Below, piece by piece: positions 399-42,647 of a stretch of 64,000 nucleotides of DNA (the first letter of the stretch is position 1; every line of letters starts with the position of its first letter). Both the position numbers and the translations under genes were made by a program. The notes below the pieces were generated by a model that saw only the letters and a program-made list of their open reading frames with translations, was not told the origin of the DNA and did not search any database. Source of the stretch: Phyllobacterium myrsinacearum (GTDB taxonomy: Bacteria; Pseudomonadota; Alphaproteobacteria; Rhizobiales; Rhizobiaceae); the NCBI RefSeq assembly GCF_002980555.1, contig NZ_PVBT01000001.1, positions 868,001 to 932,000 of the forward strand. The letters are read 5' to 3'.

Positions 399-514
399 AA
401 AGCTTTCCTTATAGTTCGTATAGTCACTCAAAGCTTCTTTTATATCTCCCGCAATGCAAAATGCCACCGGATTCCCCGCCGGACCGGGGCGAGACGATAC
501 GCAGGAGACAGGAC

Positions 515-1264
515 GTGAGCGGTCGAGCAGGTGGTATCCGCACAATGTTGCATCGGGTGGATTGCTTTCTGACCGCCGCGCCGCAATCGCGATGGCATCA
601 GCTTGAGGCATTGCGGGCGCTCGAGCCGCACCTGTTGCGGGATATTGGTCTGACGCCGGCGGACATCCGGCGCGGCAAACCGGAGAAACATTCATTGGAT
701 AATCAATTGTTTGCAGAAAAACTCTCTCATCTTGATTCCGCCGCCGTGCGGGTGCGCGATGCGCAAGACCGCGATATGGAGCCGGTACGGGCCATCTATG
801 CCTATCACGTGCTCAATGGCATTGCTTCCTTTGAACTCGAGGTGCCAGCGGCGGGCGAGATGGCAGCGCGCCGGGCGGCTGTGCTTGCTGCAGGGCTGCC
901 ATATCTGGTGGCCGAGGTGAACGGAGAGATCGCGGGGTACTGTTATGCAACGCCCTACCGGCCGCGCCCTGCCTACCGCTTCACGGTGGAGGATTCGGTT
1001 TATATCGCCAACGGCATGGCTGGCTGCGGGATAGGATCTCTGCTGCTCGGCGAGCTGATCCGGCGGTGCGAGGCCGGTAACTGGCGGCAGATGGTGGCGG
1101 TCATCGGCGATAGCGGTAATACGGGGTCGCTGCGGCTGCATGAGCGGCTTGGTTTTGCGCCGGTCGGTACGCTGCGCTCCGCCGGCTTCAAGTTCGGCCA
1201 ATGGGTCGACACGGTGCTCATGCAAAGGCCGCTGGGGCAGGGCGACGCGACTTTCCCGGCTTAG
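515..1264 (+). CDS. GNAT N-acetyltransferase (phosphinothricin/methionine sulfoximine type) with DUF1127-like N-terminus
   Basis: The last ~165 residues are a GNAT acetyltransferase of the PAT/YncA (MddA) group, which uses acetyl-CoA to acetylate small amines such as phosphinothricin or methionine sulfoximine. Visible hallmarks are VRDAQDRDMEPVRAIYAYHV, GYCYATPYRPRPAYRFTVEDSV, the acetyl-CoA loop NGMAGCGIGSLLLGEL and ENTGS/LHERLGF-like residues (GNTGSLRLHERLGF). The N-terminal ~40 residues carry a DUF1127-like helix pair (LEALRALEPHLLRDIGLTPADIRRG), which is unusual for this family. Three starts are possible: ATG 461, GTG 515 and ATG 545. GTG 515 has GGAG seven bases upstream and is preferred; all three keep the DUF1127-like segment. 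The gene is divergent from the LysR gene. The acetyltransferase call is firm; the substrate is not known. Confidence 0.85.
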   Translation: MSGRAGGIRTMLHRVDCFLTAAPQSRWHQLEALRALEPHLLRDIGLTPADIRRGKPEKHSLDNQLFAEKLSHLDSAAVRVRDAQDRDMEPVRAIYAYHVLNGIASFELEVPAAGEMAARRAAVLAAGLPYLVAEVNGEIAGYCYATPYRPRPAYRFTVEDSVYIANGMAGCGIGSLLLGELIRRCEAGNWRQMVAVIGDSGNTGSLRLHERLGFAPVGTLRSAGFKFGQWVDTVLMQRPLGQGDATFPA

Positions 1265-40823: not shown

Positions 40824-40984
40824 GGTAAGTCTCCCGGGGAGGACGTGAAGGGGGACTCAGACTGTAGAACTCCGGCGTTCGTCTTTCCAGCCTGGCTTTG
40901 ACCCGAATGGTCGCAGGCGTGGATTGCAACGGACGTCGTTTGAAATGCAGGCGGTGAGCAGATGTCTCGAACCGCATACCCCTG

Positions 40985-41110
40985 AAACAACAACACCCAC
41001 CGCGGGAGGAGGTGCGGTGGGTGCCGTTTTGTAAAGACCGGCTGGGAGGAGGAGTGCCGGCCTTTGATCGCGGGGGCTCTGGGAGGAGGATGAACCCCGG
41101 CGATATTCTG
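40985..41110 (-). ncRNA. CcsR/cuckoo-type small RNA, three CCUCCUCCC hairpins
   Basis: On the minus strand, just 15 bases after the DUF1127 stop, three hairpins follow in series, and each exposes CCTCCTCCC in its loop: stem 41067-41076 with 41095-41104 (motif 41081-41089), stem 41033-41042 with 41056-41065 (motif 41044-41052), and stem 40994-41003 with 41014-41023 (motif 41004-41012, perfect 10-bp stem). Stems one and two each have one mismatch. A downstream gene for a DUF1127 protein plus repeated anti-Shine-Dalgarno loops is the layout of the CcsR/cuckoo RNA family of alphaproteobacteria, processed from the mRNA 3' end. The RNA is predicted to base-pair with GGAGG ribosome-binding sites. 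RNA ends are estimates. Confidence 0.85.
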
Positions 41111-41118
41111 TTATGCGA

Positions 41119-41265
41119 TTAGCGTACTGCGGACTTCTTGGCGACGAACGGGATGTCCGAGCGGGAGATGCCCAGGTCGTTCAGTTCGCGGGTCGACAGA
41201 CGGTTCAGCTCGGAAACCGTGTCACGGTAACGGCGCCAGTTGCTGTAGGAGCGGATAAGGTTCAT
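41119..41265 (-). CDS. DUF1127 small protein
   Basis: A 48-residue basic protein, MNLIRSYSNWRRYRDTVSEL at the start, then the DUF1127 core LNRLSTRELNDLGISRSDIPF and an AKKSAVR tail. In-frame ATG 41277 is an alternative, four codons upstream. Related proteins (CcaF1 in Rhodobacter) are small RNA-binding proteins made from the same transcript as CcsR RNAs. The three CCTCCTCCC hairpins directly downstream support that role here. An inverted repeat CTTGGC-N11-GCCAAG lies upstream at 41334-41356, possibly an operator. Too short for standard ORF calling. Confidence 0.9.
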   Translation of the reverse strand: MNLIRSYSNWRRYRDTVSELNRLSTRELNDLGISRSDIPFVAKKSAVR

Positions 41266-41534
41266 TTCATTCACCATTCGGTTCAGTTGTTTCGTTGATC
41301 ACTCTTGATCGTTGAGCTGAAGATAGTGGATGCCTTGGCGAATGTGCAGAGCCAAGTTTGCAGATCAGCTATGCATATGTTGCATTGCATCATTAATCGA
41401 TTTTAATTGCTGCGTCGCACAAATGTCATCTTCATGACCTTTAGCCCGAATCCGGCTGCAATTGCGTTTTCAATGTGGCTGGCATTATCAGGGGCAGGAC
41501 CCTAATCTTACATCTCGAGTCGGGAGAAGAATGC

Positions 41535-42647
41535 ATGATAGTCGGTTTTACCCTGCGCAAGCACATTGCACGGTGGCAGCGTGACGGGTTGATCGATGAC
41601 GCCACGGCGGAACGCCTGCGCAAGGATATTGCCGGGCAGGGCCCGGGTTTCGGCCTGGGGAATGTTTTGGCCATACTGGGCGTCATTCTGCTTGGCGCTG
41701 CCCTGCTGTCGCTGATTGCCGCCAATTGGGAAGCCATGCCGCGCCTTGTTCGCGTCGGGTTGATCTTTGCCGTGCTCTGGTGCGGTTATCTCGGCGGCGC
41801 ATGGCGGGCGAACAAGGGCGATGCGATTTTCAGTGAGGCGCTCTATCTCCTGGGGGCCATCGCCTTCGGTGCGGGGATCGCCCTGGTCGGCCAGATGTAT
41901 CATCTGTCGGGGGATGTGGCGTCCGCGGCGCTGCTCTGGGCTGGAGGGACGGTTGTCGCCGCGCTGCTGTTGCGCTCGTCGACACTGGTCTCCACTAGCA
42001 TCGTGATTGCCGGTTTCTATCTCGTGGCCAGCCTGGAACCGGAAACGGCATCGCGCCTGTCCTATATCTGGATCGTTCCGGTCTTCGCGGTGATTGCGGC
42101 GGGCCTGATATGGTATACGGGCGCGCAGGTGGCCCGGCATTTTCTCGCTGTCCTCGTGCTGGCCTTTGTCTGCATCGTTCACTTCGACCGGGATGTCACT
42201 GTCGTCTTGTGGATGACGCTGATTGCCGGGCTTGGCCTGTTTCTGCTCGACGCCTTGTATCCGGACATACTGGACCGGGCGACCGGATGGAGCATCGGTC
42301 TTGGCGCTTATGGATTTCTCGCGGTGCAGATGGTGCTGCTGATTTTCCAGTTCAATGACCACATCTTTGCCCGGACTCGCGATGTCATGACGGGTATTGT
42401 CATCCTTGCCGTGGCGATCGCCGGTCTGGCCCTGTCGGGGCATCGCAATCTCGCGATACGGTGGAGCGCCTATGGATTGTTTTCGCTTGAGGTCCTCTAC
42501 ATCGCGTTCGAGACCATCGGCACAATGATCGGCACGGCGGGCTTCTTCCTGACCGTCGGCGTGCTTGTCCTGTTGCTTGCGGTGTTCGTTATCCGCATGG
42601 AGCGCCGTCTTCACAAAAAGAGTCTGGTGAAAGGTGCAGCATCATGA
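41535..42647 (+). CDS. DUF2157 multi-pass membrane protein
   Basis: A 370-residue membrane protein with about ten hydrophobic segments after a short cytosolic N-terminus (RKHIARWQRDGLIDDATAERLRKDI, the DUF2157 opening). The first helices include GNVLAILGVILLGAALLSLIAANWEAMPRL, also family-typical. GGGAGAAG precedes ATG 41535, which decides the start over the longer open frame. It overlaps the next gene by four bases (ATGA), a conserved pairing with GDYXXLXY-domain proteins. The function is unknown; a role in envelope or transport is only a guess. Confidence 0.85.
   Translation: MIVGFTLRKHIARWQRDGLIDDATAERLRKDIAGQGPGFGLGNVLAILGVILLGAALLSLIAANWEAMPRLVRVGLIFAVLWCGYLGGAWRANKGDAIFSEALYLLGAIAFGAGIALVGQMYHLSGDVASAALLWAGGTVVAALLLRSSTLVSTSIVIAGFYLVASLEPETASRLSYIWIVPVFAVIAAGLIWYTGAQVARHFLAVLVLAFVCIVHFDRDVTVVLWMTLIAGLGLFLLDALYPDILDRATGWSIGLGAYGFLAVQMVLLIFQFNDHIFARTRDVMTGIVILAVAIAGLALSGHRNLAIRWSAYGLFSLEVLYIAFETIGTMIGTAGFFLTVGVLVLLLAVFVIRMERRLHKKSLVKGAAS

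Follow-up and report, generated by a model that had tools for sequence, protein, structure and literature searches.

We found that the 64-kb window analysed here (the whole stretch of DNA under study, from a Phyllobacterium genome) carries on its minus strand a short DUF1127 gene that is followed directly by an RNA of the Rfam family ar14, with three hairpins whose loops all present the same sequence, CCTCCTCCC. The best reading of this arrangement is that the 3' end of the mRNA would give a single RNA, about 120 nt long, whose three anti-Shine-Dalgarno seeds would be redundant, by analogy with NfeR1 of Sinorhizobium meliloti. We think it likely that the locus is a two-product unit of the CIN1/cuckoo type, in which a DUF1127 mRNA driven by an LsrB/VtlR regulator would end in a trans-acting ar14 RNA. 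The locus is confirmed to be of the published DUF1127 plus cuckoo-RNA (CIN1) type, and in this respect it is mostly known already.

The locus and its predicted fold

The features of the locus, in positions of the window, are the following.

41475-42647, plus strand: DUF2157 membrane protein gene, upstream of the DUF1127 gene on the opposite strand
41277, minus strand: start of an alternative, longer DUF1127 frame
41265-41119, minus strand: DUF1127 gene, 48 codons plus stop codon (Pfam PF06568, 60.9 bits versus a cut-off of 23.3)
41118-41105, minus strand: linker from the DUF1127 stop codon to hairpin 1, 14 bases, unpaired over the part covered by the predicted fold (41112-41105)
41104-41067, minus strand: hairpin 1, loop CCTCCTCCC at 41089-41081
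41065-41033, minus strand: hairpin 2, loop CCTCCTCCC at 41052-41044
41028-40989, minus strand: hairpin 3, loop CCTCCTCCC at 41012-41004, with a long stem and a U-rich 3' side
40823-39879, minus strand: aldo/keto reductase gene, downstream of the hairpins on the same strand as DUF1127

The original prediction of a 48-codon DUF1127 gene ahead of the hairpins is borne out by the Pfam match, and its loop coordinates are exact, each CCTCCTCCC being unpaired within a predicted hairpin loop. The DUF1127 protein has no match in NCBIfam; over 52 residues it is identical to its counterparts in Phyllobacterium sp. OV277 and P. calauticae. Elsewhere in the window, a single frame at 461-1264 (plus strand) combines a GNAT acetyltransferase with a DUF1127 domain (28.5 bits) on its N-terminal side, and the stray frame 868-1020 has no match in Pfam.

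Because hairpin 1 begins only 14 bases past the stop codon, it is likely that DUF1127 and ar14 share one transcript. In the modelled fold the linker would be the likeliest point for release of the RNA, and hairpin 3 probably doubles as the terminator. A terminator scan that allowed loops of 3-8 bases reported none on the minus strand. The fold energy is -61.7 kcal/mol compared to -38.5 +/- 3.5 for shuffled sequences (z -6.7, with 0 of 200 shuffles as low), just 1 and 4 unpaired bases separate the predicted hairpins, and all motif bases have an unpaired probability of 1.00 that does not change when 330 upstream bases are added to the fold. There are only three copies of CCTCCTCCC on both strands of the 64 kb, where 0.44 per window would be expected from 200 dinucleotide shuffles.

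Assignment to the ar14 family

The original prediction had called this a CcsR/cuckoo RNA locus and had named a covariance-model search as a check. That search gave a full-length match to ar14 (RF02344) at 41108-40988 on the minus strand, with 112 bits versus a cut-off of 58.8, model positions 1-123 of 123 and an E-value of 6.7e-20 over the whole window. CcsR1 (RF02791) missed its gathering score, with 26.8 bits versus 65.3 (E 0.00034 in a 1-kb search). The combination of a DUF1127 gene with a cuckoo-type anti-Shine-Dalgarno RNA thus stands and the membership in CcsR does not: we place the RNA in the ar14 branch of the cuckoo type because it matches the full ar14 model and falls far short of CcsR1. 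The Streptomyces Scr3202 and the 6C RNA were also considered and rejected; they share C-rich loops with this RNA, and both score 29.2 bits, short of their respective cut-offs (52 and 47).

As in the cuckoo RNAs described in PMC3927594, there are three hairpins with fixed loops, and stems 1 and 2 covary. As in the CIN1 loci described in PMC10253847, a short DUF1127 gene adjoins a CcsR-like RNA. The further suggestion that the hairpins are three separate sRNAs is unlikely, since the ar14 model describes one three-hairpin RNA, NfeR1 is reported as one 115-nt transcript (PMC8844928) and the gaps are of just 1 and 4 bases.

Copies, covariation and loop conservation in the genus

We searched 21 genomes of the genus and counted ar14 matches at E-values up to 0.001. 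There are 4-7 matches per genome and 106 in total, with 99 above the Rfam cut-off. Taking DUF1127 neighbours by pattern recognition within 450 bases upstream, 42 of the 106 matches lie behind such a gene, two per genome in all 21 genomes, and 64 have none within this range. The distance from gene to match is 12 bases or less in 41 of the 42 and 276 bases in one, and the N-terminus MNLIRSY is common to all 42 DUF1127-linked loci. In one species (locus L112 of genome G020) the DUF1127 stop and ar14 are separated by an inserted sequence of about 270 bases that has inverted ends, and both gene and RNA are kept. The copies were sorted by eye from their sequence into the following groups, leaving 4 of the 106 unassigned.

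Group A: the window's locus, behind a DUF1127 gene, 21 of 21 genomes
Group B: a paralogous locus, behind a DUF1127 gene, 21 of 21 genomes
Group C: no DUF1127 gene within 450 bases upstream, 21 of 21 genomes
Group D: behind a phasin gene in the host, and in 17 of 21 genomes by alignment of the upstream coding sequence
Group E: 22 copies in 18 genomes

The host has four copies, one each of groups A, B, C and D. Its group D copy (G000:C7:92456-92571) lies about 21 bases behind the phasin gene L004:1638-2093 (minus strand, 120 bits); the phasin mRNA is a second kind of 3' end that hosts ar14.

The stems had been said to differ while the loops are identical, and this agrees with what we see in the genus, where stems 1 and 2 change in a compensated way. 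Taking groups A and B together (42 copies, of which 40 are distinct), 94.7% of cells are paired in a structure derived from one aligned sequence, which favours it somewhat on this measure; 0 of 500 shuffles are as high, and slid structures are paired at 39-52% of cells. Changes on both sides are found at 19 of 37 pairs, and there are 113 double-change cells compared to 45 in shuffles and 13-29 in slid structures. The evidence is supplied by hairpins 1 and 2, where 18 of 22 pairs are changed on both sides (12 of 12 in hairpin 1 and 6 of 10 in hairpin 2). Hairpin 3 says little on covariation because its stem hardly varies in the genus, with 9 of 15 pairs constant and one both-side change.

All three loops are exactly CCTCCTCCC in 20 of the 21 group A orthologues, and the single exception is in loop 2. 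The group B loops have eroded, such that all three 9-mers are exact in 8 of 21 loci and none is exact in 6 of 21; three copies of TCCTCCC are kept in 20 of 21. Over the grouped copies, TCCTCCC is present three times in 99 of 102. In six species (L183, L184, L185, L188, L189 and L199) all three B loops are reduced from CCTCCTCCC to CTCCTCCC, to TCCTCCC or to a still shorter form, and in the same six the sister locus A retains the full motif.

Linkage in other relatives

For the named relatives we used the best 80 of 210 DUF1127 loci found, a set that overlaps the 21 genus genomes. At least one CCTCCTCCC lies within 300 bases behind the DUF1127 stop in 63 of these best 80 of 210, compared to a background of 15 same-strand matches in 369,504 other bases. 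Within the same best 80 of 210, the spacing of the motifs is commonly 36-41 bases, and 19 loci have four or more copies. In the Mesorhizobium loci L064, L067, L069, L074, L075, L078, L079, L084-L088 and L091, three motifs are followed by a second series of two or three, counted within 300 bases behind DUF1127 and from the motif letters alone.

No exact motif was found within 300 bases behind the gene in 17 of the best 80 of 210 loci, which include 6 of 6 from Bartonella, several from Rhizobium and Brucella, and L026. The DUF1127 gene of L026 is 90% identical to that of the window, with the promoter box in the same place and no motif within 300 bases behind it; box and RNA can therefore be parted. 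In an order-wide search, ar14 matches at an E-value of 0.001 or less are present in at least 63 of 199 genomes, and at least 29 of 199 have one above the cut-off, counts that are low because at most 16 candidates were scored per genome and stricter filters lose weak matches. None of the control genomes (0 of 14) gave an ar14 match in this search.

The promoter region and its likely regulator

Upstream of the DUF1127 gene the following candidate elements were found.

41384-41371, minus strand: TGCA-N6-GCAT, candidate LsrB motif, 21 of 21 orthologues
41374-41362, minus strand: GCAT-N3-TG-N3-T, candidate VtlR box, present 106-110 bases before the gene start in 21 of 21 orthologues
41326-41321, minus strand: CTATCT, candidate -10 element within CTATCTTC, 21 of 21 orthologues

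In the upstream alignment of the 21 genomes a block TGCA-N6-GCATAGCTG-NNN-TGCAA is conserved, with CTATCTTC further down, and in a few rows of the block one base differs, outside the motifs. TGCA-N6-GCAT has been reported as the LsrB motif of the NfeR1 promoter, for which CTATAT is the -10 element (PMC10746234), and CTATAT is what stands at the candidate -10 in 21 of 21 paralogous (B) loci. GCAT-N3-TG-N3-T is described as the VtlR box in B. abortus and has been proposed for A. tumefaciens (PMC7486931). If the start is assumed about 7 bases past CTATCT, near 41314, the LsrB motif would be at about -70 to -57; it ends 44 bases before the candidate -10, and in NfeR1 it is described within about -72 to -57. 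The candidate promoter has a poor-looking -35 region. Using a scan for sigma-70 type promoters, the sole minus-strand match in 40900-41600 is at 41429-41400, upstream of the box. A dyad-like block at about 41422-41400 (minus strand), TGTGCG-N-CGCA and then CAATTAA, is conserved in most orthologues and overlaps that match.

The VtlR box is found in 3.4% of shuffled regions when shuffling preserves base content only, and the 21 of 21 found in group A are orthologues of one genus and not independent witnesses. The box is inverted at a similar distance in 20 of 21 B loci; for the remaining groups the counts are 12 of 21 in C, 4 of 22 in E and 0 of 17 in the phasin-linked D. Among the best 80 of 210 relatives it is present in 45 (shuffles less than 4%), and TGCA-N6-GCAT is within 300 bases upstream in 25, with about 0.9 of 80 expected. 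The 15-base Brucella VtlR motif is matched with 3 mismatches or fewer in 20 of 21 B loci versus 0 of 420 shuffles that likewise preserve base content only, and with 3-4 mismatches in 21 of 21 A loci, which 23 of 420 shuffles equal. The shorter published box fits both groups; the 15-base version fits B better.

A LysR gene is found in the host between trxB and the ar15/AbcR RNA, and the order trxB - lysR - ar15 has been described for vtlR (PMC7486931). The host protein scores 483 bits against the A. tumefaciens LsrB structure 9HH1, and the next solved LysR scores 108; in the best 25 of 56 NCBIfam matches listed for it, no model is above its cut-off. On these comparisons the host genome has an LsrB orthologue. 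From the conserved upstream motifs, LsrB/VtlR appears more likely as the input to the locus than the RpoH promoter known from Rhodobacter. Regarding the AbcR RNAs, no LsrB control was reported in S. meliloti under the conditions used (PMC7486931), and LsrB is described as indispensable for AbcR1 (PMC8844928).

Candidate targets

The sequence GGGAGGAG is found 3-10 bases before an ATG 32 times in the host versus 4 times for the reversed pattern, and the genes with these perfect 8-base start sites include many ABC/TRAP uptake transporter genes. In the host, ABC/TRAP components make up 8 of 19 genes with a perfect site versus 2 of 12 with the control sequence AAAGGAGG (P 0.14, not significant), and in a second species (G019) 9 of 20 versus 0 of 15. 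Pooling the two genomes gives 17 of 39 versus 2 of 27 (Fisher P 0.001, or 0.0014 with cross-species orthologues, judged by eye, merged), where both control sequence and second genome were picked once the first host result had been seen. These counts use frames of at least 100 residues only, with one double-listed gene and one duplicate transposase merged, and leave out a solute-binding-like protein without a Pfam match (L289) and an MFS transporter (L290). For the test we retrieved 30 of 32 sites in the host and 30 of 48 in G019; for the control, all 23 of 23 and all 28 of 28. ABC and TRAP uptake systems are likely among the targets, and the transporter excess fits the predicted NfeR1 targets (PMC10746234) and is not proof of regulation.

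We rejected ntrB as a conserved target. It is a proven NfeR1 target in S. meliloti (PMC10746234), whereas the presumed Phyllobacterium ntrB, called from its position before ntrC (TIGR01818, 706.5 bits) and not by family search, has AAGAAGG at its start instead of GGGAGGAG and so no strong site. Self-regulation of DUF1127 through its own loops was also set aside because there is no GGAGG upstream of its start.

Comparison with known systems

NfeR1 (alpha-r14) is the closest in form, with three hairpins that each present CCUCCUCCC, and its 115-nt transcript (PMC8844928) compares to about 120 nt predicted for the Phyllobacterium RNA. It has a promoter of its own, and the word DUF1127 is absent from PMC10746234, whereas the RNA of the window follows the gene. 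In Rhodobacter sphaeroides, the CcsR1-4/CcaF1 locus (CIN1) is described, like that of the window, as a DUF1127 gene followed by RNAs of the cuckoo kind. A single transcript has been shown there. The Rhodobacter locus also differs in having four RNAs rather than one three-hairpin RNA, a CcaF1 of 71 residues versus 48 for the window's protein, and an RpoHI/HII promoter where the window has a VtlR/LsrB box.

The SmelA075/SmelA099 cuckoo models of Rhizobiales are described with three or four hairpins, CCUCCUCCC loops, variable stems and several copies per genome (PMC3927594), and the Phyllobacterium copies are further members of this kind. Short DUF1127 genes in Brucella are reported to be under VtlR (PMC12595884), which resembles the candidate VtlR box found here, and the 15-base motif of that study contains the box in reverse, as in Phyllobacterium locus B. 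The available portions of the same paper treat these as protein genes and mention no 3' RNA. In the portions of the literature covered we found no paper that joins DUF1127, a 3' RNA and LsrB/VtlR, which may still be published, and no title among the matches listed names a DUF1127-ar14 unit in Phyllobacterium.

Proposed mechanism and alternatives

In the mechanism that we propose, an LsrB/VtlR-type LysR regulator would bind and activate a promoter located some 60-120 bases before the DUF1127 gene, giving a short single mRNA that would end in hairpin 3. Cleavage in the unpaired linker past the stop, by RNase E if the analogy with Rhodobacter ccaF1-CcsR holds, would then free the ar14 RNA (about 120 nt), whose three loops would each offer CCUCCUCCC for pairing with GGGAGGAG-like Shine-Dalgarno sites, which would block translation. 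The three seeds could be redundant, by their likeness to NfeR1, for which mutation of all three abolished repression of an ntrB reporter in S. meliloti (PMC10746234). The DUF1127 protein may have a role of its own: such proteins are reported to bind RNA and assist sRNA maturation in Rhodobacter and to contact PhoR in Agrobacterium, and some of them work via protein contacts (PMC12501420).

The alternatives differ in what becomes of the hairpins. In a true CcsR-type locus an RpoH-driven precursor would be processed by RNase E and the DUF1127 protein into several separate sRNAs. The gene order and loop motif are indeed those of ccaF1-CcsR1-4 (PMC10253847), and the weak CcsR1 match points the same way. 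However, that match stays well below the gathering score, just 1 and 4 unpaired bases lie between the hairpins, and what is conserved upstream fits a VtlR/LsrB box, such that we regard this possibility as unlikely. The hairpins could also act in cis only, terminating the DUF1127 mRNA and stabilising its 3' end, with loops that have no role in trans. Their position directly 3' of the gene and the resemblance of hairpin 3 to a terminator stem would suit this, but a stabiliser has no need of three 9-base loops that stay identical while the stems change, most ar14 matches in the genus (64 of 106) lack a DUF1127 gene in the 450 bases upstream, and the NfeR1 loops are reported to silence in trans (PMC10746234). 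A purely cis-acting role is for these reasons very improbable.

Another view is that the multiple copies serve as a general damper of translation led by Shine-Dalgarno sites, with no defined regulon. The core of the 16S tail is CCTCC, which the seed includes, and both the 4-7 matches per genome and the persistence of TCCTCCC in nearly all grouped copies agree with such a role. Against it, the perfect sites are enriched for transporters and the published effects of NfeR1 concern chosen targets (PMC10746234), and we hold general damping to be quite unlikely. The two-product unit with a trans-acting ar14 RNA is thus the reading that we prefer.

Implications

As a known regulatory unit confirmed from sequence in Phyllobacterium, the locus is an ordinary find; the probable promoter link to the redox regulator LsrB is of somewhat more interest. 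It also bears on whether the protein or the RNA is responsible for the phenotypes of short DUF1127 genes, a matter framed in the available parts of PMC12501420 in terms of RNA or protein binding. We tentatively suggest, as a possibility that we would not yet favour, that the short DUF1127 genes of Rhizobiales under LsrB/VtlR are often units of a protein and an anti-Shine-Dalgarno RNA, which together would form a largely LsrB-led brake on nutrient uptake. If this is true, part of the effects ascribed to DUF1127 proteins or to LsrB/VtlR would be the work of the 3'-end RNA, and the uptake brake would come from several dispersed copies, whose boxes face either way and of which one follows a phasin gene.
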